This document shows, one piece after another, positions 7,249 to 49,072 of a stretch of 64,000 nucleotides of DNA (position 1 is its first letter; the number at the start of each line of letters is the position of its first letter). A program made the translations under genes and the position numbers. The stretch comes from Bacteroidia bacterium (GTDB lineage Bacteria; Bacteroidota; Bacteroidia; Bacteroidales; Azobacteroidaceae). The stretch covers positions 1 through 64,000 of the forward strand of contig BNTW01000001.1 in NCBI GenBank assembly GCA_025996895.1. The letters are read 5' to 3'. Below the pieces are notes generated by a model, which was not told the DNA's origin, did no database searches, and saw nothing but the letters and a program-made list of their open reading frames with translations.

Positions 7249-7294
7249 TTGAAAACTTTTATGTTAATAATGTAATATCTCTCCTATTATTTTG

Positions 7295-7326
7295 CAAACT
7301 TATGATAAATATTTTGAATACACAAA
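7295..7326 (-). promoter_or_regulatory. Bacteroidetes-type promoter of the caspase operon
   Basis: On the minus strand TTTG (7326-7323) is followed after 20 bp by TAAGTTTG (7302-7295). Both match the TTTG/TAnnTTTG consensus. The start codon at 7248 lies about 40 bp downstream of the expected start point. Confidence 0.6.
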
Positions 7327-7390
7327 GAAAAATGATAAAAAATAGTTATTTTTGCGGTCGATTATATTTACATTTTTAATTCAATTTATT

Positions 7391-7945: not shown

Positions 7946-7962
7946 CAACAGGACAAAAAATG

Positions 7963-7994
7963 AAATGGCGGATTTTTTGTCCGCCATTTTTTTT
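7963..7994 (+). terminator. Rho-independent terminator after the DUF3332 gene
   Basis: AAATGGCGGA (7963-7972) pairs perfectly with TCCGCCATTT (7980-7989) across a 7-nt loop, followed by T5. The opposite strand is also T-rich, so the hairpin may end the converging permease transcript too. Confidence 0.85.
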
Positions 7995-8003
7995 GAAATC
8001 AAT

Positions 8004-9629: not shown

Positions 9630-9723
9630 TTTGTATCTATTTTTGTGAATTAGGCTACAAAGATGAGCATTTTTTTCTTAAAACAAACTATTATACTAAT
9701 TACTTTTATATTTACTTATTTTT

Positions 9724-10683
9724 TTATTGCGCATCTAAACCGGTTTGTTTCACGACTTGAATGCTGCCGTCGGGATTGTAATACAATTTATCCACGCAAA
9801 TTGAGCGCAGCCAGTCGTTAAATTCGCCGTTGGTTTTCGACAGCGCGCTGCTGTGATAAAACGAATACCATTGTCCTTTGTATTCCACAATCGAGCCGTG
9901 ATTGGTGTAGCTATCGGTCGGCGTCATGTAGATTCCCATCGATTTCCAGGGGCCTAACGGACTGTCGCTGATGGCATAACGCATGCGATTGTCGCCTTTC
10001 ACGCCTTCTTTATCGTTGCCTTCGTCGTGATTGTCGGAATACGAAAGATAATATTTTCCGTTGTATTTATGTACCCAGCTCGCTTCGTGAAAATCTTGCA
10101 AGCCGGCCATCGGCTGCAATTCGCCGTCGATTTCCACCATGTTGTCTTTCAATTTTCCGCCAAACGGTTTGCCGCCGCCGCCGAAATAAAAATAGGCTTG
10201 ACCATCGTCATCAACAAATACACAGGGATCGATATGCGACGGAATGTCGGGAATATAACCCACAACCGTAAAATCTTTGGCCGGATATTTGCTCGTGGCC
10301 ACGCCGATTTTCCACGAATCGTTCCATTTGGAATCGCTGGGGTGCGGAAAATAAAAATAATACGTGCCGTTTTTGTAAGCACAGTCGGGTGCCCACATAA
10401 AACCGCCTTCTGGACGTCCCCAAGGCACTTCCGACGAACGAAGAATTTCGCCGTGATCTGTCCAATTCACCATATCGCCGGTCGAAAACACATGATACTG
10501 GTCCATCAAATCGCAACCGCGCGCGGGTGCAATATCGTGCGAACAATAAACATACAAGCGTCCGTCAGCCCATACGTGCGCCGAGGGATCGGCGGTATAC
10601 ATGTGGCGGATAAAAGGATTTTCCTGTGCCAAACAAACGCCGGCAAACAATGCAAATACTGCTACTAATAGATTTTTTCTCAT
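9724..10683 (-). CDS. Glycoside hydrolase family 43 enzyme, exported
   Basis: The 319-residue protein has a signal peptide (MRKNLLVAVFALFAGVCLAQ) and a single five-bladed propeller domain. The catalytic pattern of GH43 is visible: the base Asp in MYTADPSAHVWADGRLYVY, the pKa-modulating Asp in SHIDPCVFVDDDG and the acid Glu in FHEASWVHKYNG. GH43 enzymes are inverting beta-xylosidases or alpha-L-arabinofuranosidases. It is the last gene of a three-gene minus-strand operon, 42 bp after a multidomain hydrolase gene. Together they suggest breakdown of arabinoxylan or arabinan side chains in the periplasm. Exact substrate specificity is not deducible. Confidence 0.88.
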   Translation of the reverse strand: MRKNLLVAVFALFAGVCLAQENPFIRHMYTADPSAHVWADGRLYVYCSHDIAPARGCDLMDQYHVFSTGDMVNWTDHGEILRSSEVPWGRPEGGFMWAPDCAYKNGTYYFYFPHPSDSKWNDSWKIGVATSKYPAKDFTVVGYIPDIPSHIDPCVFVDDDGQAYFYFGGGGKPFGGKLKDNMVEIDGELQPMAGLQDFHEASWVHKYNGKYYLSYSDNHDEGNDKEGVKGDNRMRYAISDSPLGPWKSMGIYMTPTDSYTNHGSIVEYKGQWYSFYHSSALSKTNGEFNDWLRSICVDKLYYNPDGSIQVVKQTGLDAQ

Positions 10684-10725
10684 TTTTATTTATAATTAGA
10701 TATTTATTTTCTTGTCGTGCACCGC

Positions 10726-13329
10726 TTACCGTGTACTGTGCACCTTTAAAAGTTTCGCTGCTTTTCCAGCCAATTTCAGATAATAATCACTGCCTAAATC
10801 GGCGTCCAAAGGTAAGAAATAACTTTCACCTACCGGCACTTCAGTCGCACATTTAAATATTGCCGTACCTTCGTCGATTTCGTCAAACATCGCCAGATAC
10901 AGCATTTCCGCGCCCTGATTGATGTGGCTCGAAAGTTGTTGCCAATAAAAACTGCCGCGATTGCGGGGAATAGGCTTTGAGCCTTTGTTCATATTCACCC
11001 ACGAAAAGCCGGGGAAAGCCAACGGCGCGTAATCGAGTTTATTTTCCTTACACCATTTCATATCTTCCTTCACCAATTTTTCGTAACGCGGAAATGTTTG
11101 CTCGTTGTAACGTCCTACAAACCAAGGCATAACAACATCGCATTTTTTGATTAAGCGGTGCAATTCCGGGTCGTCCATCGTGTCGCCTTCCAAACGCCGC
11201 CAATTCGTCGGAACGCCGATTAAAATGCTATAACCGCGTTCAATCAGTGCGTCGATAATAATTTCCGCTTCCTTAAAACCGTATTTCCGGCGGTCGTTGA
11301 AGCCAATGCCCCAAACAGCGACCAACGGTTTGCCGTTGTGATGCAAATACGAAGTATTATCGACCCGTTTGAAAATATCGTATTTCGCAGAAATCGCGTC
11401 AATATCCTGTATCAAAACTTGTTCGTCGCCCGGCTGCATGCCACTCAAATCATACATCACTGCGATGGCGCGGTTGTTGGCGTTGGCGGCATTGATACCC
11501 GAATGCCACACTTTATCGAGTTGTGCATGACTTTTCGGACGCTTAAGTTCGCCCACAAAACGCTGCACGAAAACGCCGTCGATACCATACTCCCGCATCC
11601 AGCGAAAATGCGTTTCGACAGTCGATTCGTCCCATTCGCTCATCACATACGCGGGACTTCCGTCGGCAAACGAAAATTCGGTTTTATACACCTTGTCGTA
11701 TTCCGAAACGTCGGGCCACATATCTACCTTGCACGAGCCCGGTCGAAATTGTCCGTCTTTGCCCCAATAGTGATACCAGCCGCGATCGGAACCGTCGCCC
11801 GGACAGCTAAACCAGCCTTGATAACCGGCCATCGCCAAACCTTTGTAGGAATCGTATTTTTTGACCATCGGGAGAAAATTGTCATTGCGGGCTTGACCCG
11901 CAATCCCCTGATACGCATTTTCAATAAAATCCACAATCACGGTCGGATTGGGGAAACTGTGCGGGTGATGTCCGAAACCTTTCTTTACAATCACCGTAAT
12001 GTCCCCGCCTTTTTCTCTGATTTTCTTTTCAAAAGGGAAAGTGTTTTGCGAATTGACGGCTGCGTCGTCCAATTCGGCACACAAAATCAAAATCGGATAA
12101 TGTCCTTTCACAATCGCATCGATTTTATCTATCGGACTTTCCTTGAAATTCTTGATTTGAGCGCGATCGATACCGTAATTTTGTTTAATTCCGACCGTAA
12201 TTTCGTTTTCCGGTTTTTCCTTTCCGTCGGGGCCGAAATACATCGCTTTCATATCCAGCAACGGATTATCGACATAAACCGCCGCCACTTTGTCGGGATT
12301 GGCAGCCGCCCAGTTGAAGACATAGACGCCACCGCGGCTCATGCCTTCCAATGCCACGCGCTGATTTAATCCACCGTCGTGCAACAACTTGTAAAAAGCG
12401 TTCCATTCCGTGATATTTTGCTTGTTGCCCATGCGTTCGGCCTGATCGCAATACACGAAGTGGTATCCTTTTTCCAACAGCGTAATAGCCGTTTGCGGTT
12501 CGTGTCCGAAGAAACGTGCCTGCCAAATCCAGGGATGATTGGCAGCCGTTTTGTGCGGTTTCACCACTTTACACTCGCGGCCGTTTTGCGTAAATTCGGC
12601 ACATTCGTAACCCGCAAAATTCGTTACTTTGTATTGTATGCCGTTCTTATCCAGCGTTTTGAAAATATCAAATGTTTCATCTATCGGGAAAGTGATTTGT
12701 TGAAACAAACGTTTGGCCATGATTTCCGATCCTTTTTCTTCCGGATGGATCTTATCGGGAATTAAATCGGGACGATCAACGAGCAGCGGACGCATATCGA
12801 CCACTTCCACATTTTCTGCGTAAGCCGCTTTTTGCAAGCGGGGCGACACTTCATTTCTACAAACCGGATCGAAGATCCCGTTTTCGTCCGTTTCAAAAAA
12901 AGCGGTGGGCAACAACACAATCACGCGCGGATGGCTCGGCAGATTTTTGAACGCCTGAATCATCGCGCGACAATCATTTTCCAATTCATCATAATACGGA
13001 CGATTGATTGCCTTCGCGTCGTTTCCGCCCAAATCAATAAACACGATGTCGGGATTGCTTTGCAATGCTTTTTGGTAATTTTCCGTATTCCAATACGGGA
13101 AATTGCCTTTCTTGAGCATGGTCGCACTTCCAATACCCTGATTTTCAACACGGTAATTCGGCCCTAACAGCGATTGAAGCTGTCCGGGATAGGAATTTTC
13201 CTTTGGATTTTGAATGCGCGCGCCTTCGGTAATACTTGCACCGATACAGGTAATCCGTATCTGCGCCTGCACGGCAAAGCACGTCATCAAAAAGAATAAC
13301 AAAATTGTTTTTTTCATGGGATTATACAT
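10726..13329 (-). CDS. Three-domain exported hydrolase: SGNH esterase, alpha/beta hydrolase and GH99-like glycosidase
   Basis: The 867-residue protein has a signal peptide ending in FAVQAQ. Residues of about 22-215 form an SGNH/GDSL esterase (GASITEG with the nucleophile Ser, LGGNDAK, and a catalytic DKIHPEE with Asp/His). Residues of about 225-475 are an alpha/beta hydrolase with nucleophile elbow EGMSRGG and His in GFGHHPHS. From about 490 to 860 lies a GH99-like domain (YKGLAMAGYQGWFSCPGDG, IDGVFVQRF, MLYLAMFDEIDEGTAIF) usually annotated as xylosidase/arabinosidase. The linker GIAGQARND between the second and third domains is encoded by a palindromic repeat at 11884-11904. It may deacetylate and cleave acetylated xylan-type glycans. 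It lies 2 bp after the F5/8-GH43 gene. Confidence 0.85.
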   Translation of the reverse strand: MYNPMKKTILLFFLMTCFAVQAQIRITCIGASITEGARIQNPKENSYPGQLQSLLGPNYRVENQGIGSATMLKKGNFPYWNTENYQKALQSNPDIVFIDLGGNDAKAINRPYYDELENDCRAMIQAFKNLPSHPRVIVLLPTAFFETDENGIFDPVCRNEVSPRLQKAAYAENVEVVDMRPLLVDRPDLIPDKIHPEEKGSEIMAKRLFQQITFPIDETFDIFKTLDKNGIQYKVTNFAGYECAEFTQNGRECKVVKPHKTAANHPWIWQARFFGHEPQTAITLLEKGYHFVYCDQAERMGNKQNITEWNAFYKLLHDGGLNQRVALEGMSRGGVYVFNWAAANPDKVAAVYVDNPLLDMKAMYFGPDGKEKPENEITVGIKQNYGIDRAQIKNFKESPIDKIDAIVKGHYPILILCAELDDAAVNSQNTFPFEKKIREKGGDITVIVKKGFGHHPHSFPNPTVIVDFIENAYQGIAGQARNDNFLPMVKKYDSYKGLAMAGYQGWFSCPGDGSDRGWYHYWGKDGQFRPGSCKVDMWPDVSEYDKVYKTEFSFADGSPAYVMSEWDESTVETHFRWMREYGIDGVFVQRFVGELKRPKSHAQLDKVWHSGINAANANNRAIAVMYDLSGMQPGDEQVLIQDIDAISAKYDIFKRVDNTSYLHHNGKPLVAVWGIGFNDRRKYGFKEAEIIIDALIERGYSILIGVPTNWRRLEGDTMDDPELHRLIKKCDVVMPWFVGRYNEQTFPRYEKLVKEDMKWCKENKLDYAPLAFPGFSWVNMNKGSKPIPRNRGSFYWQQLSSHINQGAEMLYLAMFDEIDEGTAIFKCATEVPVGESYFLPLDADLGSDYYLKLAGKAAKLLKVHSTR
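11884..11904. repeat. Interspersed palindromic repeat inside a coding sequence
   Basis: ATTGCGGG (11884-11891) and CCCGCAAT (11897-11904) form a perfect 8-bp inverted repeat with a 5-nt loop. It lies in frame inside the 10726-13329 gene and is translated as GIAGQARND between two domains. The same short palindrome is a familiar dispersed repeat in many bacterial genomes. Confidence 0.8.
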
Positions 13330-36660: not shown

Positions 36661-37806
36661 TTGGGAAAAAAAGTTGAAATCGGTGCGTTTGAGTTGTTTA
36701 TTGATGGTAACGGCGATGGACAGATCGGCAACCCTTATGATGAAGACGACCCTAACAGTATCATTGAGGAAAGCTTTTTTTCGACAGAAGAAAATGTTAA
36801 AAGTGCTTCAACGGCTGCGCTTGCTTCAATGTACTCTTTTGTTCAGAACCTGTATTTGTTCGACGGCGTTTATACAAATTCAGTTAGGGTAGAAAATTCC
36901 ACCTATGAATTGCAAGCAGTTTATTCCCACAATATTAATCCTGGCACAAATATAATCAATGAATTATGGAAAACATCCTATCAAGCCGTCAATCGTCTAA
37001 ATCAATTGATATACCATTTGGAAAAATCGGAAAAAGACTGGGCGGCAAAGTATGTGGATTATGCAAGGGTTTACAGAGCCTATATCTACTTAAATATGAT
37101 AAATTTGTGGGGAGATATTCCGCTTGTAACTGTTCCGCCGTCTATGGACAATATGTATTTTTCCAGGACATCCCAGAGTGCAGTATTGGATTTTGTTATC
37201 AGTGAACTTGAAAATGTATATTCCAATTTGCCGGAAGAAGCCCTCTTGCCCGAATGTTCAAAATACTTTGCCAAATCAATCCAAGCAAGAGCATTTTTGC
37301 ATAGAGCCGATTATAGTCTTTCTTTGAACATTGTTACGGATATCATCCGTGGCGGTAAATATATGCTGAATGATCATTTGAACGCTGTTTATGCCGGAAA
37401 TACCATGGAAAGTATTTTTGAATTATCAAACAATCAAGATTATTCAAGCATTTGGTATCGCAATTTAATTCAAAAAGGGGATTATGCGCCGATATGCCGG
37501 TATGCGGAAATTTTATTGACGGCGGCGGAAGCTAATTATCGAACCGGAAATGTGGAGCAAGCTCTTACGTATTTGAACCAAATCAGAAAACGGAATGGAC
37601 TTGAAAATATATCTTCTGTAGCGGAAGAAACTTTGTTGAATGCTTGGCAAAATGAATTGAAAAATGAAGGCTTGTATTTTCTTACCTTGAAACGTTTTGG
37701 AAAAGCAACCCAAATTCTGGATATTCCCGAATATAAACTTTTATTACCGATTCCATATCAAGAAATAATACTTAATCCGAATATGACACAAAATCCCGGC
37801 TGGTAG
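36661..37806 (+). pseudogene. N-terminally truncated SusD/RagB-like protein
   Basis: The open frame, starting at a TTG at 36661 and extending upstream without ATG to 36598, encodes 381 residues. They match the body of SusD/RagB nutrient-binding lipoproteins: FFSTEENVKSASTAALASMY, ELWKTSYQAVNRLNQLIYHL, FAKSIQARAFLHRADYSLSL, CRYAEILLTAAEANYRTGN, LNQIRKRNGLENI and the final NPNMTQNPGW. The signal peptide, lipobox and first residues are missing, and no SusC partner lies nearby. The leading HEGDSLKPFKEHIKNRYA is not SusD. It is probably a broken gene from a polysaccharide utilisation locus. Expression as a soluble protein cannot be excluded. Confidence 0.7.
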
Positions 37807-38139
37807 TATCTTTTGCTATTATTATCCATCTGCCTTATAGACAGCTATTTTTTCTGGTACAAAAGTGTTAATCTTTCAATTTACAGCAGTTTGGAAGATA
37901 ATATTATACGACTTGAATATAGAGAACTGGTATTAAAATTGGATGAGATAATTTTTAAAAAACCACTTTTCAATCCTTTCCTTATTGATTTTGGAGATGA
38001 TTTAGAGATTTTGTCATTCCCACTCTACCTGCCATTTTTTGTATTTCTTCATTGTAACCGACCCCTGTATTGCAGAAACGGTTACGATGAAAAAAGAGTT
38101 GGTGAATTTGTTGGATTAGATTAAACAAGAAATGTTGAG
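37807..38139. other. Gene-free AT-rich stretch with a short inverted repeat
   Basis: No supported gene is visible. A TTG-initiated frame of 103 residues exists (37813-38124), but it is dominated by A/T-rich hydrophobic codons and matches nothing that I know. GTAACCG (38054-38060) and CGGTTAC (38079-38085) form an inverted repeat near the right end. Confidence 0.5.
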
Positions 38140-38147
38140 TACCTTTG
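38140..38147 (+). promoter_or_regulatory. -7 element of the nuclease gene promoter
   Basis: TACCTTTG matches TAnnTTTG, 21 bp before the ATG at 38169. The -33 element is not clear. Confidence 0.5.
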
Positions 38148-38168
38148 TATCACAAAATATATAAAATC

Positions 38169-39335
38169 ATGAGTACTGATTTAATTAAAAATAGCGATTA
38201 TAAAGCGTGGCTAAAAGATTTGAAGCTACGAATCCGGCAAAGTCAGATTAAAGCTGCTGTTCGGGTCAATAGCGAAATGATAGAATTGTATTGGAGTATC
38301 GGTGCCGATATTGTTGCCAAGCAAGCGGAATCTGTATGGGGGAGTGGCGTTATCAAACAACTTAGCGCTGATTTACGGTCGGAATTTCCCGATATGCAAG
38401 GCTTCTCTGATAGGAATTTGAGAGCGATGAAACAGTTTTATCTGTTTTATAATCAAGACAATGTAATTTGGCAACAACCTGTTGCCAAATTAGGCAATGC
38501 AATTTCGCAGCAAGTTAGCACTGAAATAAGCCAACAAGTTGCTGGCGAATTACAACAGGCTGATAATAATACAGATACAATTTGGCGCCAAGTTGGTGCC
38601 AAATTACAAAGCCATCCAATCTTTAATATTCCATGGCGACATCACGGAGAAATCATGAGCAAATGCAAATCCGTACACGAAGCTTTGTTTTATGTTCAAA
38701 AGACCATCAAAAACGGATGGAGTCGTGCCATGCTGATGAATTTTATAGAAGCCGGATTATATGAGAGCCAAGGAAAAGCCATCAATAACTTTGACCGTCT
38801 TTTGCCTGAAGTACAAAGCGATTTGGCGAAAGAAACATTGAAAGACCCCTATTGCTTTGATTTTTTTACCCTTACTGAAAATTACAAAGAAAAGGAATTA
38901 GAAGATGCTTTGATTACTAATATTGCCAAATTCCTATTGGAACTTGGACAAGGCTTTGCTTATGTCGGAAGACAATATCCAATCATGGTAGGTGAAAAGC
39001 CACGAAATATGGATTTGCTATTCTATCATTTGGAATTACGTTGCTACATTGTTATCGAATTGAAGGTCAAAGAGTTTGAACCGGAACATACAGGTAAGCT
39101 TGGGTATTACATAACTGCGGTTAATCATCAATTGAAGAAGGAAGTAGATAATCCGACTATCGGATTGCTGATTTGCAAGACCAAGGATAATATTGATGCT
39201 CAATACTCTTTGGAAAGCAGTAGCCAGCCTATTGGAATTTCGGAATATACGCTATCGAAATTGCTGCCGGAGAATTTTAAATCTTCACTGCCATCTATCG
39301 AGGAGATAGAAAATGAGTTAAACAATGATGATTAA
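38169..39335 (+). CDS. YhcG/DUF1016-type PD-(D/E)XK nuclease
   Basis: The ATG at 38169 gives 388 residues. The N-terminal DUF1016 domain has LKDLKLRIRQSQIKAAVRVN, LYWSIGADIV and SDLRSEFPDMQGFSDRNLRAM-like blocks. The C-terminal nuclease domain has the catalytic arrangement NMDLLFYHLELRCYIVIELKV (Asp, Glu-x-Lys). Such proteins occur with restriction-like and phage-defence genes. Between the domains is a roughly 45-residue insertion (about 100-145) built from palindromic DNA repeats at 38466-38604. The gene is AT-rich and starts the accessory region. DNA target and partner are unknown. Confidence 0.85.
   Translation: MSTDLIKNSDYKAWLKDLKLRIRQSQIKAAVRVNSEMIELYWSIGADIVAKQAESVWGSGVIKQLSADLRSEFPDMQGFSDRNLRAMKQFYLFYNQDNVIWQQPVAKLGNAISQQVSTEISQQVAGELQQADNNTDTIWRQVGAKLQSHPIFNIPWRHHGEIMSKCKSVHEALFYVQKTIKNGWSRAMLMNFIEAGLYESQGKAINNFDRLLPEVQSDLAKETLKDPYCFDFFTLTENYKEKELEDALITNIAKFLLELGQGFAYVGRQYPIMVGEKPRNMDLLFYHLELRCYIVIELKVKEFEPEHTGKLGYYITAVNHQLKKEVDNPTIGLLICKTKDNIDAQYSLESSSQPIGISEYTLSKLLPENFKSSLPSIEEIENELNNDD
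38466..38604. repeat. Two hairpin repeats inside the nuclease gene
   Basis: ATTTGGCAAC (38466-38475) pairs perfectly with GTTGCCAAAT (38481-38490), loop 5 nt. A second, ATTTGGCGCC (38580-38589), pairs with GGTGCCAAAT (38595-38604) with one G-T, loop 5 nt. Both are in frame and are translated as IWQQPVAKL and IWRQVGAKL. Confidence 0.75.
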
Positions 39336-39356
39336 TAATGTTCACAAATCGTGTTT

Positions 39357-39390
39357 TTTGTAGTAGAAACACGAAAAACATGTATCTTTG
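39357..39390 (+). promoter_or_regulatory. Promoter of the RhuM-Fic gene
   Basis: TTTG (39357-39360) and TATCTTTG (39383-39390) are 22 bp apart. The ATG at 39418 gives a leader of about 20 nt. Confidence 0.6.
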
Positions 39391-39417
39391 CAGCCAACAT
39401 ATAAAGTTGGAAAATCT

Positions 39418-40425
39418 ATGTGTCAAGAAATAAAGAATCAAGGCGAAATTGTTATCTATCAAACGCCCGATGGCGTTGCTGAATTAGACGTTCGTTTGGA
39501 AAACGAAACCGTTTGGCTGACTCAGGCGCAAATGGTAGCGTTGTTTCAACGAGACCAATCAGTTATTTCACGCCATATAAACAACATTTTCAAGGAAGGG
39601 GAGTTAGAGAAGAAAGTGGTATATGCAGAATTTGCATATACCACTCCACACGGTGCTATGGAGGGCAAAACGCAAACCTCAATAGTACAACTTTACAATT
39701 TAGACGTAATCATCTCGGTTGGTTATCGCATAAAATCTCAACGTGGCACTCAATTCCGTATTTGGGCGAACAAAGTATTAAAGGATTATATTGTAAAAGG
39801 TTATGTTATAAATAATAAACTGAAAAACAAGCAATACGAGGACTTAAAGCAAACGGTAAAACTTTTATCAAATGTGATTCAAAACAAAGCATTGACAGGC
39901 GATGAAGCAACCGGATTGTTGCGCGTTATTACCGATTACACTTATGCTTTGGATATACTTGATAAATATGATTATCAGGAACTTACAGTTGATAATACTT
40001 CCGACAGGGAAAAGTTTCGCGCCACGTACGAGAATGCAATGGAAGCGATTGAGCAACTGAAAAGCAAATTCGACAGCAGCGATTTGTTTGCCAACGAAAA
40101 AGACCAATCGTTCAAAAGTTCAATCAATACGATTTACCAGACTTTCGACGGCAAGGATTTGTATCCGAGTATTGAAGAAAAAGCGGCGATGCTGCTCTAT
40201 TTAGTTACAAAAAATCACTCGTTCAGCGATGGCAACAAGCGAATTGCGGCATTCCTTTTCCTTTGGTTTTTGGAAAAGAACGGTATCTTATACAAACCCA
40301 ACGGATTACGGTTGATAGAAAACAACACGTTGGTCGCCCTCACATTAATGATTGCAGAAAGCAGGACGGAAGAGAAAGATGTGATGGTAAAGGTGATTGT
40401 GAATTTGATAAATAGAAATAATTGA
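39418..40425 (+). CDS. RhuM-type protein with a Fic domain
   Basis: From the ATG at 39418 the product has 335 residues. The N-terminal half is RhuM-like (VWLTQAQMVALFQRDQSVIS, HINNIFKEGELEKKVVYA, SVGYRIKSQRGTQFRIWANK). The C-terminal half is a Fic/Doc domain with HSFSDGNKRIAAFLFLWFL. This fits HxFxDGNKR, a Doc-like form with the catalytic His. Fic proteins transfer AMP or other phosphate-linked groups to target proteins, often as toxins. RhuM homologues sit in phage or defence islands. It is followed 9 bp later by the SIR2 gene and is probably co-transcribed with it. Confidence 0.88.
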   Translation: MCQEIKNQGEIVIYQTPDGVAELDVRLENETVWLTQAQMVALFQRDQSVISRHINNIFKEGELEKKVVYAEFAYTTPHGAMEGKTQTSIVQLYNLDVIISVGYRIKSQRGTQFRIWANKVLKDYIVKGYVINNKLKNKQYEDLKQTVKLLSNVIQNKALTGDEATGLLRVITDYTYALDILDKYDYQELTVDNTSDREKFRATYENAMEAIEQLKSKFDSSDLFANEKDQSFKSSINTIYQTFDGKDLYPSIEEKAAMLLYLVTKNHSFSDGNKRIAAFLFLWFLEKNGILYKPNGLRLIENNTLVALTLMIAESRTEEKDVMVKVIVNLINRNN

Positions 40426-40434
40426 ATAGTATTT

Positions 40435-43400
40435 ATGATGAAAGAACATTATATAAAACAATTAGAAGAGTTAAAGTCAAAACTTTTTGCTCATAAAATG
40501 TCTGTTTTAGTCGGTGCAGGCTTTAGCAAAAATGTAGATAAAAATAAATTTTTGTCATGGGATGAACTGCTAAAGGATATTGTTTCCTTTTTATATGAGG
40601 ATGAAATAGAATATAAGTATGCCACTCTAAAACGAAAGAATAATAAAGATGAATTTGTTAAGCAACAAATTCAGAGAATTATTGATAGAGAAGGATATTT
40701 AGAAATTGTATCTCAATATGTCAAAAGAAAAGGGTTCAGGGAAGCAATAGAAATTTATATAGAAAACCATACTCCACATCTCAGGACGGATGGAAAAGAT
40801 ATATTTATTGAAGGATTTTTTGATGATAAACCGTATAAAGATAAATTATGTAAGAATGATTTGAATTTACATAAAAGATTGCTTGATTTGTCATGGAACA
40901 ATATTTATACAACAAATTACGATAATTTGCTTGAATCAGTAGTTGATGACACGATTGAAAGCCATATTAAAGCACAAATTAAAACCATCGAAGAAAAGGT
41001 TAATGCATCAAAAGAGGAAATAGAAAAGAATAAAACCGCATTGATAAAATTAGATGAAGAATTGTCTGAAATTGAAGCTAAATTATTTTTATTATTAGAA
41101 GATGAGAAAATTCAACGTTCTGTTAATGAAGTTGATAAGAATGATCTTGAGGATAAAAAACAGAAGAAAGAATCTGAAAAAAGAAAAATAGATTTCAGAA
41201 TATTTGACATACAAAGAAATATAACTATTAATGAAACTGAAAAATTTAATCTTGAAAAAGAATTGTCTCAATGTATCACAATTATAACACATTCATCGGA
41301 TTTACAAATAAAAAGAAATAAAAATATTATTAAACTACATGGAAGTTTACGAAACGAAAACTCTGAATTTGGTTTTGATGGAGACAATCATTGTCATTAT
41401 GTTATAGCAAAAGAAGATTATGATGCATATCCAACAAGGCATGAGGCGTTTACTCAACTAATGAGAATTTCGTTATTGCAAGAATCTTATTGTTTAATCG
41501 GATTTTCCGGTGTTGATCCAAACTTTACCTCATGGATTTCTTGGGTTAGAGATATTATTAAACGTAAACACGCACACGAAAAGGATAATTATAAGATCTA
41601 TCTAATAGAAGTTTTACCTGAGAATAATACAGAAATAGAACGAACAGAAAAACAACTGTTTTTTGAAAATCACAGGATTATAAAAATTCCTATTTGGAAA
41701 AAAGAAATTGTTGATTTTCTTAAAAGACAAAATGAGATTCAAGATATTGATGATAAAAATCCGAAAGAATTACTTAAACTATTGTTTCAATATTTATCCA
41801 ATGAAGAATGTTTATACAAACCAAAAGCCTACATTGAATTAGCAGATCAGAAAAAATATAATGCAGGATGGGAAAATATCACTAATGGCGAATATGGAAA
41901 GAAGATAAAGTTATCACCTGGTAATAAATACAATGATATTGGAAAATATAAGCATAAAGTTCGTGTTCCATCCCTTGATTGGTTCAATTTTCATGACAAG
42001 CAAACATTTTTGTTCTTTATAGATGCACTATTGAAAAAAAGTTCTCCAAAGGAACAAAAAATAATCTTAAATCTTTTGCCTATCGCTATTAGAGATTCAT
42101 TTTTGACTCCACATTTTATTTGGGAAAATGGGCTTGAAGCCATTATGCCTTATGTAAAAATAAAGAGACAAAAAATTGAATTATCACAGTTTCGACTAAT
42201 AGAAGCCGTCCTATTTGTGGATAAAGATAAATTTAATACGGAAGTGGTTTTCCTCTCTAAAGAAAAATTAGAACAAGATATTGTAAAATACCAATCAGTT
42301 CTATTCTCTGCTTTCACATTTGACTTTGTTGCGATGAAAAAACAAATAGATGAATGGGAACCTAATAACTCATCTCGATGGTACGTAAAGAAATTAGGAT
42401 TATTATCTTTATTTGATGCAAAAGAAAGTGAAACACAACTAAAAGAATATTGTAATACCTTTGATTATCTTTCTTTTCAAGAACAATTATATGCGCTGGA
42501 AACATTAAATTATGTAAGTAGAAATAATTATATAATGAAATCAGGAAAAGATGAAATTAAAGAAAAAATAGAACAATACAAAAACTTGGGATTTAAAAGT
42601 TTCATGGACAACTTCGATTATTTGATGGAGGAATTGAATAAAGAACAAACGAAAACTAAAATTTTACCTTATGGAGAAGGAAGATTTTCGGAAAATAATA
42701 CCATTAATTTTGCGAATGGAACAACCCGACCTCAACATAGTATGCAGTTTATTCAATTGATGATGGAGTTTGGTATTCCGTTATCATTACGAGGCATGCA
42801 TTTAAAAGATGCTGTCACATGGTTTAATGTGTTTAATCCTATTTTTGAATATACTCCTTATCCTGCTATTTTTTACAGTTTGCAGATAACTGATGAAAAA
42901 ACGCTAAGAAGAATAGCTCAAGAGTGTGCGTATTCGGATAATATCAAGAACAACATTCCTGATATTTTAGAAAAGTTGCTAATAGCCTATCTACAAAATG
43001 AAACACCTAATTTATATAAAGACAACATTTTAGTTTTTTCTTCTGAATTGTTTATTGCAGTTTCACCCGAACGTTGGCAATCATATTTTTATGAAATTTG
43101 GCAATTATTCGAAAAACAAAATCAATTGTTTTATGATGGTTTACGCCATCGAAATACTGGTTTATATTCTTTCATAACGAAAGGATTAAAATACATAACA
43201 GATGTCAAAATTATACGAAAAGTACTCCTATCAATTATTGACAACTTTAACATTGATCATGATACAGCTATAGAGTATTTATACTATTTTGCAGATAACG
43301 ATACAAAGCATAAGTTTGGAAGAAAAATTTGTAATAAACAAATAGATGGTAAAATTAATGTTTTGATAGAGCAAATATCTCAAGAAAATGAAAGTGTGAT

Positions 43401-44331
43401 TTTTGCTTTAGGAAATTTGCATAGTCATTTATCACAAGTACAAAAGGAAAATATTGAGAAGTTTATTGAAAACATTGATTTTCAATCTATAAAAAATGAA
43501 AGAGTGTGGAGAATACTTCTATTTTTTGCGAAAAATGAAATTTTAAGATCAAGAATAAAACGAGGAATCATCGAAAACAAAAAGTTATGGTACACAGGAA
43601 TAAACACAAATGGCAGCATTTCAGGAGAGGAGGATTTTATTGATTTGCATTTATTAGACACGAAATATGCAAAAGAAAGTGGTATTGAATGGTCTAACGC
43701 TGAGTGTGTGGAATTATATAATAAATTGAAAGAAAACTTTGAGAAAATTCAACATTGTAGAATTCAAGCGGATCCCATATTTAGCTTTAAACGGATATTG
43801 GAAGAAATGGATATGTTTCTTGATAATGAAGCCTCTAAATTAAAAAGTGAATCTGATTTTCAATCAATAAAGCAAGAAGTTCGAAAACTATACTATGAAA
43901 AGAGAGGCTATGAAACAATCACATCTGCTTTAATTTCGGATGATCATTCAAAAATAATAACGGCTTTATCTGAACTATTTTATGATATATACTATAGAGT
44001 AGGCATTGAAAAAAATAAGGAAGCACTAAATCTTTTAATGAACAAAGTGCTTATGAAAAAAACTCCGGCACTCGAAGCTTGCCTTGGATATTTATCAAAT
44101 CTTCTAAAAAGCCGTAAGAACGAAAAATTATTAAGATCTTTTTCATCGGTGTTGAATTTAATTTTAAACGAATACAACATTGAAGAAGATGAAATAGAAA
44201 AGCCTTTCTTGCATCAAAACATGATACGAATAGCAGAAGTATTGGAATATTGGGGATTCCAAAATGACGGTATTGACAAATGGTTGAAAATTAAATCTGA
44301 GAAACAATTTAATTTTGTATCAACTATTTAG
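40435..44331 (+). CDS. Large SIR2-domain protein with an internal coiled coil, probable anti-phage NADase
   Basis: This is a single protein of 1298 residues. The N-terminus is SIR2-like: VGAGFSK (27-32) for NAD binding, IYTTNYDNLLE (catalytic region 159-166), KLHGSL (300-305) and IGFSGVDPNF (355-364). A charged coiled coil (about 176-285, EEKVNASKEEIEKNKTALIK, then DLEDKKQKKESEKRKIDFRI) interrupts the SIR2 domain. The remaining 900 residues are helical and repeat-like with no recognised catalytic motif. The layout (SIR2 NADase plus a long helical sensor) resembles DSR-type defence proteins, which destroy NAD+ on phage sensing. The AT-rich sequence contrasts with the housekeeping genes and suggests transfer. 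It follows the RhuM-Fic gene by 9 bp. Confidence 0.8.
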   Translation: MMKEHYIKQLEELKSKLFAHKMSVLVGAGFSKNVDKNKFLSWDELLKDIVSFLYEDEIEYKYATLKRKNNKDEFVKQQIQRIIDREGYLEIVSQYVKRKGFREAIEIYIENHTPHLRTDGKDIFIEGFFDDKPYKDKLCKNDLNLHKRLLDLSWNNIYTTNYDNLLESVVDDTIESHIKAQIKTIEEKVNASKEEIEKNKTALIKLDEELSEIEAKLFLLLEDEKIQRSVNEVDKNDLEDKKQKKESEKRKIDFRIFDIQRNITINETEKFNLEKELSQCITIITHSSDLQIKRNKNIIKLHGSLRNENSEFGFDGDNHCHYVIAKEDYDAYPTRHEAFTQLMRISLLQESYCLIGFSGVDPNFTSWISWVRDIIKRKHAHEKDNYKIYLIEVLPENNTEIERTEKQLFFENHRIIKIPIWKKEIVDFLKRQNEIQDIDDKNPKELLKLLFQYLSNEECLYKPKAYIELADQKKYNAGWENITNGEYGKKIKLSPGNKYNDIGKYKHKVRVPSLDWFNFHDKQTFLFFIDALLKKSSPKEQKIILNLLPIAIRDSFLTPHFIWENGLEAIMPYVKIKRQKIELSQFRLIEAVLFVDKDKFNTEVVFLSKEKLEQDIVKYQSVLFSAFTFDFVAMKKQIDEWEPNNSSRWYVKKLGLLSLFDAKESETQLKEYCNTFDYLSFQEQLYALETLNYVSRNNYIMKSGKDEIKEKIEQYKNLGFKSFMDNFDYLMEELNKEQTKTKILPYGEGRFSENNTINFANGTTRPQHSMQFIQLMMEFGIPLSLRGMHLKDAVTWFNVFNPIFEYTPYPAIFYSLQITDEKTLRRIAQECAYSDNIKNNIPDILEKLLIAYLQNETPNLYKDNILVFSSELFIAVSPERWQSYFYEIWQLFEKQNQLFYDGLRHRNTGLYSFITKGLKYITDVKIIRKVLLSIIDNFNIDHDTAIEYLYYFADNDTKHKFGRKICNKQIDGKINVLIEQISQENESVIFALGNLHSHLSQVQKENIEKFIENIDFQSIKNERVWRILLFFAKNEILRSRIKRGIIENKKLWYTGINTNGSISGEEDFIDLHLLDTKYAKESGIEWSNAECVELYNKLKENFEKIQHCRIQADPIFSFKRILEEMDMFLDNEASKLKSESDFQSIKQEVRKLYYEKRGYETITSALISDDHSKIITALSELFYDIYYRVGIEKNKEALNLLMNKVLMKKTPALEACLGYLSNLLKSRKNEKLLRSFSSVLNLILNEYNIEEDEIEKPFLHQNMIRIAEVLEYWGFQNDGIDKWLKIKSEKQFNFVSTI

Positions 44332-44409
44332 AGAAAAATTCAAATCTTGTATATTCCATAATTATGACAGAAACAATTAAAAATAAAATGATATTTAACA
44401 AAAGAAATT

Positions 44410-44679
44410 ATGACCAAAGAAAATGCAATTAAACTGTTTGAAGACAAAATGATTCGTACCGTTTGGAACGAAGAGGAGGAAGAATGGTATTTCTCGGTAG
44501 TGGATGTAGTAGGTGTTTTAAGCGACCAAATAGACCATGCCGGAGCGCGAAATTATTGGAAAGTGCTTAAACACCGCTTAATAGCCGAGGGAAACGAACC
44601 GGTTACAATTTGTAACCGGTTGAAATTACCTGCTGAAGATGGCAAAATGCGTATGCCGGATGTTGCTTCTACCGAATGA
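44410..44679 (+). pseudogene. Truncated BRO-N/phage antirepressor-like protein
   Basis: The 89-residue frame begins MTKENAIKLFEDKMIRTVWN, then EEEWYFSVVDVVGVLSD and YWKVLKHRLIAEGNEPVT, ending KLPAEDGKMRMPDVASTE. This is the first half of a BRO-N family protein (phage antirepressor type). Relatives continue with a QLFRLIQSIPSPKAEPFKLW-like segment that is missing here. The sequence moves directly into a short frame (44677-44742) that I do not recognise. It is therefore probably non-functional. Confidence 0.7.
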
Positions 44680-44756
44680 ATAAGATAGATCAAAATAAGA
44701 ATATAGAAAATCCGTATAATTTCACGGGACTGGTAAACTAATATAAACAATAATCT

Positions 44757-45488
44757 ATGGCAACCTATATAACAGATACAGTTAAAGATACAATCAAAAA
44801 ATTCGCTTGCGGATATGTATTTACCGCAAAGGATTTCCCATTGCCGGTTGAGAAGCAAAAAACCGTCAATAAATTGTTGGACAATATGGTTGCTGCGGGA
44901 CAAATCCGTCGCTTGTCGAAGGGGCGTTTCTATAAACCGCAAATGTCCAACTTCGGCGAACTTCCACCCGACACCTTCCAAACAGTTAAGGATTTAATAG
45001 AAAAAAACGGAAAACCAATCGGATACTTGACAGGTTATTCGCTCTTTAATAAGTTCGGCTTGACTACACAAGCGCCTGTTACCTTGCAAATCGCCATGCA
45101 GAAAGTAAAAAAAGCAATAACACGCGGAAATTACCGTATTGGTTTTGTCATTCAGCCGAATACAATTACAAAAGAGAATATTCCGATACTTCAACTGCTG
45201 GATTGCTTTCGCTATTTCAAGGATATCCCCGACACAATGCCGGACGAAGCTTGCCGACGGCTATTGTTCCTGCTCAAACAACTGACGGATAAACAAATAA
45301 TACAGTTAAAACGTTTAGTTTTGAAATACAATCCTGCAACGATTGCTCTTCTGGGCGCTTTGCTCGAAACGATGAACGAAAAAGAAGATACATCGCTGTT
45401 ATTCAACGCTCTGAATCATCAAACATCCTATCAGTTTGGTATTTCACAAGATATATTGTTAAATCAAAAAAAATGGCACATCAGATGA
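44757..45488 (+). CDS. DUF6088/AbiEi-type antitoxin or regulator
   Basis: The 243-residue protein has an N-terminal winged-helix segment (YVFTAKDFPLPVEKQKTVNK, LLDNMVAAGQIRRLSKGRFY). A C-terminal domain follows with GYLTGYSLFNKFGLTTQAP and NIPILQLLDCFRYFKDIP, the DUF6088 type. These pair with a nucleotidyltransferase toxin (AbiEii-like), and the antitoxin also represses its own promoter. Here the next frame starts by ATGA overlap at 45485 but runs only 10 codons. The toxin is therefore lost, or its remnant is too short to recognise. This leaves an orphan regulator. Confidence 0.75.
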   Translation: MATYITDTVKDTIKKFACGYVFTAKDFPLPVEKQKTVNKLLDNMVAAGQIRRLSKGRFYKPQMSNFGELPPDTFQTVKDLIEKNGKPIGYLTGYSLFNKFGLTTQAPVTLQIAMQKVKKAITRGNYRIGFVIQPNTITKENIPILQLLDCFRYFKDIPDTMPDEACRRLLFLLKQLTDKQIIQLKRLVLKYNPATIALLGALLETMNEKEDTSLLFNALNHQTSYQFGISQDILLNQKKWHIR

Positions 45489-45519
45489 ATAAGCAATCGA
45501 GAAAAATAGACTTGTAATT

Positions 45520-45807
45520 TTATTCCTCTCCTTTTTCTTCTTTTCGGACATCGCCTATCGTATAAATTCCCTGAAATGAATTATCCAAGGGATATATTTT
45601 AACATTATCGGGTAATATTTCACCTGCTTCGAAAAGATAAGCACCGCTAAAGTTACCTCTAAAAGCAACTTCAACAAACATATCATCTTTTAAAATTTCT
45701 TCATTAAAAGCATTGGTATCATCATTTTTTACCCATTCTTTCAATGCCTTAACCACTTTTTTGTCTTGTAAGTATTGTCTTTTTATCGCACTAAATGTTG
45801 TACTCAT
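45520..45807 (-). CDS. Unknown small protein
   Basis: The 95-residue frame (ATG at 45807; a longer start at 45834 is possible) reads MSTTFSAIKRQYLQDKKVVK, then ALKEWVKND and the beta-rich FVEVAFRGNFSGAYLFEAGE. It is hydrophilic, with no signal peptide or membrane helix. It converges on the DUF6088 gene. I do not recognise a family. The coding call rests on the amphipathic composition and an uninterrupted frame. Confidence 0.5.
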   Translation of the reverse strand: MSTTFSAIKRQYLQDKKVVKALKEWVKNDDTNAFNEEILKDDMFVEVAFRGNFSGAYLFEAGEILPDNVKIYPLDNSFQGIYTIGDVRKEEKGEE

Positions 45808-46059
45808 AGCTGCAAATCTTATTGAAAATTTCACACAAAGGTATAAAACTGTATCATTTATTCAAATATTCCGCTCAAACTCCGCCGTCAAATCAATGAT
45901 TTTTTAATTGATTGAGACCAATTCTTACATGATCTGGATTTGATTTGGGAACTTCGAGAGTGGATTCCGAATCCGTGAAAAAAAAATGATATGTTTCGAC
46001 AAATTAAAAATTATCCTAAAAAAAACCGACATGTGCTTTATTTCGGCATAGCATCCTTT

Positions 46060-46067
46060 TATCTTTG
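46060..46067 (+). promoter_or_regulatory. -7 element of the 46098 gene
   Basis: TATCTTTG, an exact TAnnTTTG, lies 30 bp upstream of the ATG at 46098. The preceding 45835-46059 holds no gene that I can support. Confidence 0.55.
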
Positions 46068-46097
46068 CCTCATCTTTAACAATTAAAATTAAAAAAC

Positions 46098-46769
46098 ATG
46101 GCAAAAAACAAAAGATTAGTAACTGTTGATGAAATAATCACAGGAAAGGCACAATTTGATGAAGATGTTTACACCCGAACAACCGGTGGCGGTTTCCAAC
46201 TACGGGACGATTTATTGGAAGAAGTGAGTGCCGCCGCTAAAAAGCAGTTTTTCGATAACTTGTATGAAGAAATTAAAAACTTTCTTTACAACCTAACGGA
46301 AGAGGAAAAAAACAAAGTTTCATATATCGGATTGGAAGTTGGAGTTCTATATTTTGAAGGTTGGATGATTAATGTGTATTGTTATAAGCCCTATCAGTCT
46401 ATGACTGATACTTGGATGGATAATAGATTTGCTGATGGAGGAGCATGGTCGTCATTTACTGAAAAATTGATTGAAATAGAGCGTAACAATACCTTATTCC
46501 GGCAATGGATGGAACAAACGCCGTATTCAGCTGTCTTTCAATCCTTGGGAGAGCAGGATTATGATTACGATGCTGATTATAAACAGGGATATGATGGAAA
46601 TATGCTGAATATGCTTTGTTATATTTTCCTGATGCCGGGAGTCAAGCGATTGCGGCGGCGTTTGTTTGAAGACCAAATTATTCAACAAATATTCGGGAAA
46701 AGGATACCGGTTTATGTAAAACCGCACAATGATGAAGTGATATTTAGTGACAAATCATTAATTTTGTAG
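46098..46769 (+). CDS. Uncharacterised protein, first of a three-gene cluster
   Basis: The 223-residue soluble protein begins MAKNKRLVTVDEIITGKAQF and contains an aromatic-rich centre (IGLEVGVLYFEGWMINVYCY) and YDYDADYKQGYDG. It has no signal peptide or clear catalytic motif. It is driven by its own -7 element. The next gene starts 29 bp downstream. I do not recognise the family. The neighbourhood of defence genes makes a defence or mobile-element role possible. Confidence 0.6.
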   Translation: MAKNKRLVTVDEIITGKAQFDEDVYTRTTGGGFQLRDDLLEEVSAAAKKQFFDNLYEEIKNFLYNLTEEEKNKVSYIGLEVGVLYFEGWMINVYCYKPYQSMTDTWMDNRFADGGAWSSFTEKLIEIERNNTLFRQWMEQTPYSAVFQSLGEQDYDYDADYKQGYDGNMLNMLCYIFLMPGVKRLRRRLFEDQIIQQIFGKRIPVYVKPHNDEVIFSDKSLIL

Positions 46770-46798
46770 TCGAATTTTTAAACTTTAAAAACGGGAAT

Positions 46799-47509
46799 AT
46801 GATTTACAAAGACAGTTTTATAAAATTGGTAGAGGAATACAATGTCGATAATTATATTGGCACAGGCAATCCCAATGCAAAAATTTTGATTGTTGGAAAA
46901 GAAGGCTCGTGTATTCCTGAAAAAAGGCGTGATGGTGAAGTATGCTTTACCCAAGAATGGGATAAAAAAATTAAAAATGATGAAGATATAAATTTCAAGT
47001 ATAAAAAAGATGGACTGAAAGAAGGACATACATGGAATAAATATCAAAAATTACACGATTATATTTTCCCGGAATATAAAAAAGATGGCTTTTTTAATTT
47101 TGAAGAAAGATTTTTTACAACAGAAATGAGTGCAATTCGTAAAAAAACCACAGAAGAAGCGCAAAAAGATCCTAAATTTGAGGAAAAGTTGAAAAAGAGA
47201 AAAGAATCCTTTTTTAAATCTGAATTTATACAGCAATTTCCGGTGGTTATTTTAGCTTGTTCCAACTATATCAAAAATAACGATAAGGTACGAGAAATTG
47301 ACAATCTTTTTGATGTGAAATTTGTTGAAGCTTTTACTTGTGAACGGAAAAGCAAAAAATATTCTTTTTGGACACATGATAATGCCGATAAAACAAAATT
47401 AGTAATCCATACACGCCAATTAAGCAGCGATGTACCTGAAGAATTGTTAGAAAAAATGGGAAAAGTAATAAATAAATTTGCAGAGAATAATAATATTATA
47501 CTATTATGA
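46799..47509 (+). CDS. Uracil-DNA-glycosylase-fold-like protein, function unknown
   Basis: The 236-residue product opens with DNYIGTGNPNAKILIVGKEG, which resembles the GxGxPxAkxLIVGExPG loop of family 4/5 uracil-DNA glycosylases. Near the end, LVIHTRQLSSDVPEEL resembles the second motif of that fold with His. In between is FFTTEMSAIRKK and PVVILACSNYIKNNDKV. The resemblance is suggestive but no 4Fe-4S cysteines are evident. It overlaps the next gene by 4 bp. A nucleic-acid base-sensing role in defence would fit the context. The family is not certain. Confidence 0.5.
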   Translation: MIYKDSFIKLVEEYNVDNYIGTGNPNAKILIVGKEGSCIPEKRRDGEVCFTQEWDKKIKNDEDINFKYKKDGLKEGHTWNKYQKLHDYIFPEYKKDGFFNFEERFFTTEMSAIRKKTTEEAQKDPKFEEKLKKRKESFFKSEFIQQFPVVILACSNYIKNNDKVREIDNLFDVKFVEAFTCERKSKKYSFWTHDNADKTKLVIHTRQLSSDVPEELLEKMGKVINKFAENNNIILL

Positions 47510-48102
47510 AAAAAGCAAAAGCAAAAGCAATTTTGCAAAATATTCGCAATAATCTGGAAAACAACATGTTGGATTCTATAGATAATATAAAAATTGCAAG
47601 GAAGATAAATTCTGAAATTTCGTACATAGTGGACTATTTGTACGAATTAATACATGAAATTCAGACTATTTCAGCATACATTGATAAAAAAGAGTTTTTA
47701 AATAAAATGTGTAAGCTGTTGTTGGAAAACAATTTGCACCCGCAAGAAAAAACACCTAACAACAAAAAAAGAGCATTGCAACATTTTCTTTCGGGGTATT
47801 TGTATAGTCGAGTTGATAATGAAATTGCTGAAATTGAAAGAAAAATAAACGAATTAAACAGTATTATAAAGGCGAGTCAAAACACAGAAAATGTTATTCA
47901 AATACTTAAAAATACCTATTCTTCAAATGAAACGAAAACTCTTTTAATGCAAAAACTAAATTTTTCGGAACAGGAAGCACAATATTTATGTTCAAAAATG
48001 ACTTTAAAAAATTTTGTTAGTCATGAGCAAATTGCCAAAGCTGCCGAACAAGTTAAATATTTGAGTGAAATTAAATCACTATTAATTCAATTCAAAGAAT
48101 GA
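47506..48102 (+). CDS. Uncharacterised helical protein
   Basis: The 198-residue protein begins MKKAKAKAILQNIRNNLENN and is predicted to be mostly helical with coiled-coil character (EIAEIERKINELNSIIKAS, TLLMQKLNFSEQEAQYLCSK). It has no signal peptide. Its start overlaps the stop of the UDG-like gene (ATGA) and its stop overlaps a truncated hydrolase start. This suggests a former operon of at least four genes. The family is not recognised. Confidence 0.55.
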   Translation: MKKAKAKAILQNIRNNLENNMLDSIDNIKIARKINSEISYIVDYLYELIHEIQTISAYIDKKEFLNKMCKLLLENNLHPQEKTPNNKKRALQHFLSGYLYSRVDNEIAEIERKINELNSIIKASQNTENVIQILKNTYSSNETKTLLMQKLNFSEQEAQYLCSKMTLKNFVSHEQIAKAAEQVKYLSEIKSLLIQFKE

Positions 48103-48161
48103 AAATAAATATCCTCTACATACACGGTTACGGCGGCTCCGGCAATTCCTGTTTGCCATGA
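48099..48161 (+). pseudogene. Truncated alpha/beta-hydrolase start (YqiA-like)
   Basis: An ATG at 48099 overlaps the previous stop and encodes MKINILYIHGYGGSGNSCLP, then a stop. IHGYGGSGNS is the N-terminal oxyanion-loop pattern of small serine esterases. The rest of the roughly 180-residue enzyme is missing. The stop overlaps the WYL gene start (ATGA), so a deletion appears to have joined the two. Confidence 0.55.
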
Positions 48162-49072
48162 AAAACCTCTTTCCCCGTTACATCTGGCTGGTCGATACCA
48201 TCTATCGCGCCGAAAAAATTACATTTGAGGAAATCAACAAGCGTTGGCTGCGCAACGAAATGAGCGAGGGCAAGGAAATTCCTTTACGCACATTCCATAA
48301 TCACCGGCAAGCGATTGAGGAACTATTCGACATCAATATAGAATGTGACAAACGCAATGGCTATGTTTATTACATTGATAACAAAGAAGATATGGAACGC
48401 GGCGGTATCCGCTCGTGGCTGTTGAATACGTTTGCCGTCAATAATCTGATAAACGAATGTAGAGACGGGGCATGCCCCGTCTCTACCCGGTTACGGCAGC
48501 GGATTTTGTTTGAAACCATTCCCTCCGGCCAACGGTTTTTGACCCCGATTATCGAAGCCATGCGCGACAATATGAGCGTAGAAATCACTTACCAAAGTTT
48601 TTGGCGCGACCAACCGAATACCTTTGAAATAGAGCCATATTGCGTAAAAGTGTTCAAACAACGCTGGTATGTGGTCGGGCAAAATCCGTATTACAATACT
48701 TTGCGAATTTACGCGCTCGACCGGATTCAGAATTTGCAGACAACCGGTAAATCTTTCCAATTACCGAAAAATTTTGACGCTCACGCCTTTTTTGAAAACA
48801 GCTTTGGAATTATTGTTGATGAAAATATAAAACCTTGCATAGTAAAAATCAAAGCCTTCGACCCCAAGCGTAAATATTTTCGGACACTTCCGCTGCACGC
48901 CTCGCAACAGGAAATTGAAACGACCGACAAATATTCGGTATTCAGTTATTATATTTCCCCGACTTTCGATTTCCGGCAGGAAATTTTGTCGCATGGCGAT
49001 GAAATCGAAGTTTTATTGCCGGAATGGTTTCGAAATGAAATCCCAACGACAAACAATTTGAGGACTTTTTGA
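48158..49072 (+). CDS. WYL-domain transcriptional regulator with an in-frame palindromic insertion
   Basis: The 304-residue protein starts with a DNA-binding part (RYIWLVDTIYRAEKITFEEI, PLRTFHNHRQAIEELFDINI) and then a WYL domain (VEITYQSFWRDQPNTFEIEP, then CVKVFKQRWYVVGQNPYYNT). WYL proteins often control phage-defence systems and respond to nucleic-acid ligands. Residues of about 101-110 (RDGACPVST) come from the 28-bp palindrome at 48459-48486, which extends the loop before the WYL domain. The C-terminus ends RNEIPTTNNLRTF, where an acyltransferase-tail sequence begins in another frame. The end may therefore be shortened. Confidence 0.85.
   Translation: MKNLFPRYIWLVDTIYRAEKITFEEINKRWLRNEMSEGKEIPLRTFHNHRQAIEELFDINIECDKRNGYVYYIDNKEDMERGGIRSWLLNTFAVNNLINECRDGACPVSTRLRQRILFETIPSGQRFLTPIIEAMRDNMSVEITYQSFWRDQPNTFEIEPYCVKVFKQRWYVVGQNPYYNTLRIYALDRIQNLQTTGKSFQLPKNFDAHAFFENSFGIIVDENIKPCIVKIKAFDPKRKYFRTLPLHASQQEIETTDKYSVFSYYISPTFDFRQEILSHGDEIEVLLPEWFRNEIPTTNNLRTF
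48459..48486. repeat. 28-bp perfect palindrome inside the WYL gene
   Basis: GTAGAGACGGGGCA (48459-48472) followed by its exact reverse complement gives a continuous 28-bp palindrome with no spacer. It is a known kind of dispersed repeat. Here it is in frame. Confidence 0.85.

Follow-up and report, generated by a model that had tools for sequence, protein, structure and literature searches.

A Dsr2-related SIR2 protein of Bacteroidota with a predicted coiled-coil hairpin at the place of the DSR2 activation loop

The SIR2 gene and its coiled-coil insert

We analysed a stretch of 64,000 nucleotides (hereafter the window; positions 1 to 64,000, forward strand, of contig BNTW01000001.1, assembly GCA_025996895.1) from a Bacteroidia bacterium of the Azobacteroidaceae, and in it a gene encoding a large SIR2 protein. 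The gene order around it is YhcG/DUF1016, RhuM-Fic, SIR2, a short Bro/PDC-S13-like open reading frame (ORF) and an AbiEi-like ORF, a set of neighbours that indicates defence-island content (Table 1). The initial annotation had placed a SIR2 gene here, which we confirm: the ORF is intact, and it has one match in its own genome (3.12 Mb, 258 contigs).

Table 1. Features of the SIR2 locus in the window (A1, family alignment of 75 rows)
Feature	Position	Strand	Remarks
SIR2 gene, 1298 aa, Dsr2-related with coiled-coil insert	40435..44331	+
SIR2 fold, first half, residues 1-173	40435..40953	+	GAGFS = 27-31, TTNYD = 159-163
TTNYD motif, catalytic Asn161	40909..40923	+	invariant in 75/75 rows of A1
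Predicted coiled-coil hairpin insert, residues ~174-277	40954..41265	+	at the place of DSR2 loop W143-Y148
SIR2 fold, second half, residues 278-440	41266..41754	+	KLHG and GFSGVDPNF
KLHG motif, catalytic His302	41332..41343	+	invariant in 75/75 rows of A1
Alpha-helical solenoid tail, residues 441-1298, putative sensor	41755..44328	+	Dsr2-tail homologue
RhuM-Fic neighbour	39418..40425	+	ends 9 bp before the SIR2 gene
YhcG/DUF1016 PDDEXK nuclease	38145..39335	+	defence-island neighbour
AbiEi-like neighbour	44757..45488	+
89-aa ORF, truncated Bro-like gene	44410-44679		matches first third of PDC-S13 / PDC-S04 (286 / 292 positions)
SusD-like ORF, 381 aa, TTG start	36661-37806		no susC-length ORF adjoining

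In Pfam, the protein matched SIR2_2 alone at E ≤0.1, and the PADLOC and NCBIfam scans gave weak matches to Dsr2 (5e-41 and 1.1e-39, respectively). Its catalytic residues Asn161 and His302 are equivalent to Asn133 and His171 of Bacillus subtilis DSR2. Structure models were built with AlphaFold2 in two separate parts, residues 1-480 and 401-1298. When the first (mean pLDDT 88.7) was compared with known structures, as had been suggested for the known defence SIR2 proteins, Foldseek ranked DSR2 first for the core, and the nearest folds were NADases of defence systems. Computation establishes the fold, the catalytic residues, the kinship of both core and tail with Dsr2, and the position of the insert described below. 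The protein is likely a NADase-type enzyme.

Between the TTNYD and LHGSL motifs, the model places an insert folded as a hairpin of two helices (residues 172-224 and 232-277), which in a structure search superposes on the coiled coil of HP0958 (0.9 Å over 109 residues). Relatives were sought among 5.8 billion proteins, which gave 396 matches at E ≤0.001 from 7970 scored candidates; of these, 120 were listed, the window protein among them. The segment from TTNYD to LHG is 87-155 aa long in all 120 listed proteins, with a median of 136 and an interquartile range of 132-141 (n = 118); it measures 155 aa in P0019 and 130 aa in P0104. Hydrophobic periodicity at 3.5 residues reached 4.36 over the first 45 residues of the insert and 3.83 over the last 45, against 1.10 for shuffled first arms, in a set of 133 inserts (118 from the listed proteins and 15 from the scan of species genomes described below, some of them duplicates). 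The internal coiled coil proposed by the initial annotation is thus real as judged from the predicted hairpin, and its heptad signal appears family-wide. The length of the insert is well conserved across the family. Its sequence is the most variable of six stretches compared in A1, residues 164-173 being too short for scoring: the insert averages 17% pairwise identity, whereas the flanking SIR2 halves average 45% and 56% and two tail parts 26% and 32%.

A subgroup of eight relatives (L026, L030, L032-L035, L039 and L042) has TFNYD in place of TTNYD. By eye, their inserts present two helical arms with a less helical middle. Sequence homology between the inserts of the TFNYD and TTNYD subgroups did not rise above the reversed control (0.12 vs 0.056).

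Position of the insert and kinship to Dsr2

We then located the insert with respect to DSR2. Aligned to related proteins without an insert, the window family shows a gap that starts about 10 residues past TTNYD and ends at ...QCITIITHSSDL / ...KSWDIIRNSSDL; aligned to Dsr2, the gap starts 9 residues past TTNYD. The no-insert profile in turn aligns to B. subtilis DSR2 without any gap from TTNYD through HG, which places the insert inside W143-K-R-G-K-Y148 of DSR2 (residue numbers derived by counting from N133). DSR2 (1005 aa, with cryo-EM structures), a tetramer that depletes NAD+ when triggered by a phage tail tube protein, has a short loop, W143-Y148, where the window protein has a coiled coil of about 104 residues. 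In DSR2, the loop of one subunit is described as inserting into a pocket of the partner's middle domain, and its replacement by Gly-Ser as nearly abolishing NADase activity and removing toxicity (PMC10981675); a second study reports that the same replacement significantly affected activation (PMC11087589). The placement of the insert within the segment equivalent to this activation loop (143-148) is new.

The rest of the protein is a long tail. Residues 401-1298 were modelled as a nearly all-helical solenoid (mean pLDDT 89.2), in line with the helical, sensor-like tail that had been proposed. The tail model matched generic HEAT/ARM solenoids (importins, CAND1, SF3B1) in Foldseek and VIA; such matches indicate the type of fold and are no evidence on the kinship of the tail. 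For comparison, the tail domains of DSR2 are given as a helix-turn-helix, a helix bundle, HEAT repeats and a C-terminal domain (PMC11263360).

Kinship was assessed by comparing profiles with hhalign. With the tail alone, the family profile aligned to a set of 39 Dsr2-type proteins (A4) at E 1.6e-25 over 823 colinear columns, and to a set of eight no-insert proteins (A5) at E 4e-114; the SIR2 core aligned to Dsr2 at 4.3e-60. Reversed-column controls gave 0.15-0.18 for Dsr2 (whole tails) and 0.052 for the no-insert set. The family tail matched its own reverse at 4.8e-5, so that a helical-repeat bias is present, yet far weaker than the signal of tail homology. The PADLOC Dsr2 check of A4 covered L001-L004, which were taken as examples of Dsr2 (1.5e-125 to 7.3e-202 on the PADLOC model). 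When the window protein was compared piecewise with the NCBIfam Dsr2 model, residues 1-174 matched at 3.1e-13, residues ~283-416 at 5.7e-22 and residues ~598-737 weakly (1.9e-5). The tail, initially regarded as having no recognised domain, is therefore distantly homologous to the tail of Dsr2, and colinear with it. Because of this colinearity, the window protein is, on sequence, a divergent Dsr2-type member, lying far under the NCBI Dsr2 cut-off. It shares with the Dsr2 models NF041819 and PDLC02184 (1215 and 1222 positions), which we take to go back to the Dsr2 that Gao et al. 2020 tested, the N-terminal SIR2 core, the colinear helical tail and the catalytic Asn and His. Unlike the Dsr2-type relatives, with about 35 residues from TTNYD to LHG, it carries the hairpin and falls in a separate clade.

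Other defence systems with SIR2 proteins were also considered. No TIR gene (ThsB) adjacent to the SIR2 gene, as for Thoeris ThsA, was found by Pfam (E 0.1) in the ten ORFs of 36661-49072, and Pfam gave no SLOG-type match in the SIR2 protein. Neither a HerA gene nor a STAND domain, which would point to SIR2-HerA or Avs5, was detected by Pfam in the ten ORFs or by PADLOC in nine (best 25 families for two of the neighbours). The sensor parts of ThsA, KomC and Avs5 differ from that of the window protein (SLOG, partner proteins and STAND), and none of the three is known to have a solenoid tail of this kind.

A sister group of Bacteroidota proteins lacks the insert (L025, L036-L038, L040, L043, L045 and L047; six of these eight, with L044 and L046, make up A5). 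These proteins have the same motifs as the window protein and a tail homologous over its length, but 35-37 residues between TTNYD and LHG and no coiled coil. To place the two forms, a quick tree without bootstrap was built from 88 proteins with the insert left out (73 of 84 proteins from fetched loci, 11 short or split ones being omitted, and 15 of the 120 listed proteins). The 37 insert-bearing and 11 no-insert rows form one group (SH-aLRT 100), apart from the 40 Dsr2-type rows. The tree requires two changes of state (the insert was either gained twice, or gained once and lost once), and a single insert-bearing clade was not rejected (p-AU 0.468). As 48 of the 88 rows differ in composition and there are four long branches, the deep placement is uncertain. 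One protein of the group, L048, has KLNG instead of KLHG and is thus without the catalytic histidine.

Distribution and neighbouring genes

The 119 listed relatives are 1204-1344 aa long, except P0088 (956 aa), with 29-61% identity to the query; their coverage of it is 96-100%, falling to 82% in P0019 and 73% in P0088. Those that are named come from Bacteroidota, as "SIR2 family protein", "SIR2-like" or "hypothetical", together with P0002, from a termite gut metagenome, which is the closest among the matches listed. A profile scan of 84,980 species genomes yielded 363 relatives. Among the best 80 of these 363, which were fetched, the segment between the motifs is long (110-157 aa) in 24 and short (30-37 aa) in 54, and could not be measured in two (L023 and L061). 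The long-segment proteins carry TTNYD, save eight with TFNYD and one with STNYD. Judged by record title, all but one of the 24 belong to Bacteroidota; the exception, L032, from a Lachnospiraceae metagenome-assembled genome, pairs in the tree with a Muribaculaceae copy. The family is rare: profile A1 had matches, mostly weak and partial, in 7 of 395 genomes from the phylum and in 12 of 393 from the order, both counts including the window's own genome. One family member from a different genome of the order (L120; G724:C1, ~7059-12647 of the locus) is split into separate ORFs, and the matched part spans the columns of the insert.

The insert-bearing form was not seen on phages or plasmids with tblastn, which returned five plasmid and one phage partial matches. 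The four that were fetched (three plasmid, one phage) proved to be Dsr2 proteins in which 35-36 residues separate the motifs, and relatives on viral contigs have 34-38 residues there (12 out of 12). One Dsr2 protein is encoded by a record labelled as a complete phage genome (L004, PV036459.1). The length of this record, 57209, equals that of the contig bearing L079 (Alkalibacterium sp. MB6), and the two proteins are identical across the tree columns.

The initial annotation considered that the domain layout might be new. It is common to at least 120 proteins; in the literature found, mostly titles and the openings of abstracts, no account of this layout came up, and none of the papers on the subject seems to describe a coiled coil in a SIR2 defence protein.

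We also examined the genes surrounding the SIR2 gene and its relatives. In the window, no AbiEii was found next to the AbiEi-like gene in the scanned neighbour ORFs, apart from a weak match (0.0012) in a WYL protein at 48158-49072, and the SusD-like ORF may be a remnant. Across the loci of 34 relatives, some on short contigs and excluding the closest relatives P0002-P0006, there was no conserved neighbour of any kind, no cluster of neighbours occurring in more than four loci. Among the 132 flanking ORFs of 23 insert-bearing loci, one or two proteins apiece matched AbiP2, Avs1a, Avs4, DrmA/DrmD, BrxH, LmuA and a type IV restriction enzyme (first 25 of 117 families; counts without a background control), and no PADLOC family was found in more than 2 of the 132 at E 1e-10. 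RES, TIR and AbiV proteins are among ten flanking ORFs examined singly, and many other neighbours resemble ordinary genes of metabolism or replication. The gene of one no-insert relative (L119/L045) immediately follows a type III restriction-modification pair, and AbiEi and AbiL-like genes are close by.

A putative lever in a probable suicide NADase, and alternatives

Taken together, we favour, with a probability of about 0.6, a Dsr2-superfamily protein that would act in abortive infection as the product of a single gene, and whose activation loop has expanded into a coiled-coil lever. The likely role in phage defence suggested initially is supported; NADase activity, a phage trigger and the part played by the lever are what we infer. 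The solenoid (residues ~441-1298) would bind a phage protein, which would shift the middle region, and this shift would be sensed by the segment between TTNYD and LHG. The hairpin, presumably a rigid antiparallel coiled coil of about 7 nm (an estimate), could then act as a lever that conveys the signal, or makes a second contact, over a longer distance. The NAD+ pocket would open, NAD+ would be hydrolysed and the growth of the infected cell would stop. A lever arm is the most likely role of the hairpin. More tentatively, and with less than even confidence, we propose that in one branch of phage-sensing SIR2 NADases, found in Bacteroidota, a short allosteric loop between sensor and active site was drawn out into a long coiled-coil lever, or into a second antenna, gating a suicide NADase.

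Several observations weigh against this interpretation. The score on NCBIfam NF041819 is 136.2 bits for a cut-off of 1400. The tail as a whole (461-1298) had no NCBIfam match at E 10, nor had two later pieces, residues 598-737 being the only piece of the tail to match the Dsr2 model. Profile A1 found no sequence match in the solved DSR2 chains, and the matches of A4 and A5 to these chains cover the SIR2 region and little further. For the tail model, neither Foldseek nor VIA has DSR2 among its 50 listed rows, which we do not take as evidence of a different fold. As to the lever, the sister group has the same tail and does without an insert, and an insert that varies freely would also fit an oligomerisation device or a second sensor.

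The first of these alternatives is that the coiled coil pairs SIR2 subunits, as an oligomerisation or filament device outside the signal path. The SIR2 NADases of the fold list (DSR2, ThsA, KomC, Avs5) are titled tetramers, helical structures or filaments, coiled coils commonly oligomerise, and the sequence of the insert is variable. However, AlphaFold2 folds the insert of the monomer as an intramolecular hairpin, and the insert enters at the known activation loop rather than at the published tetramer residues of DSR2, Y71 and D188 (PMC10981675). We therefore regard this device as an unlikely explanation, though one with a real chance of being right.

The hairpin could also serve as a second phage sensor that binds one phage protein by its tip or surface, while the tail binds another or regulates. 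The low identity of the insert is what would be expected of a surface engaged in an arms race, and the less helical middle that the TFNYD inserts appear by eye to have also speaks for this reading. But the length of the insert is well kept, and rapid change is also usual for coiled-coil spacers; a sensing hairpin seems quite improbable.

A functional pairing of the SIR2 gene with RhuM-Fic, put forward in the initial annotation, is not supported. The two genes share a strand, the 9-bp gap between them contains no terminator-like site, and the junction has a single promoter-like match (40405-40432, 9/12), at a density not above that of shuffled sequences. Upstream of RhuM-Fic, a TTTG - 22 bp - TATCTTTG arrangement (39357-39390) resembles a Bacteroidota promoter, so that the two genes may share a transcript here, and co-transcription in this genome is possible. 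Yet no homologue of RhuM-Fic (1e-5) occurs in the loci of the 34 SIR2 relatives, and none of 29 RhuM-Fic loci, whose flanks extend to about 1.5 kb at most, holds a SIR2 relative (1e-3). RhuM-type matches are, moreover, common (131 of 198 genomes), while the SIR2 family is rare. A co-transcribed, jointly active two-gene system is accordingly very unlikely, and RhuM-Fic was rejected as a conserved partner. With RhuM-Fic not a conserved neighbour and surroundings of the defence type, the SIR2 gene appears to be a system of its own that settles in defence islands. Of the 198 genomes searched for RhuM-Fic, 24 others contain near full-length relatives of it (47-69% identity); the window's RhuM-Fic carries an HSFSDGNKR motif, which is closer to the Doc type (HxFx..NKR) than to the motif of AMPylating Fic proteins.

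SIR2 folds are capable of deacetylation, but that the protein is a deacetylase or regulator rather than a defence NADase is scarcely credible: the Pfam class is SIR2_2, the nearest folds are defence NADases, the Dsr2 profile homology extends along the whole length and the neighbours include defence genes.

The Dsr2-type NADase superfamily is thus widened to a Bacteroidota family, with a member far under the NCBIfam cut-off. As the insert lies in a loop known by mutation to be needed for the activation of DSR2, the existence of relatives without an insert offers a test of how a signal reaches the SIR2 active site. If the proposed lever is true, it would represent a new mode of gating a suicide NADase, for which the sister group, with the same tail and no lever, would be a natural control.

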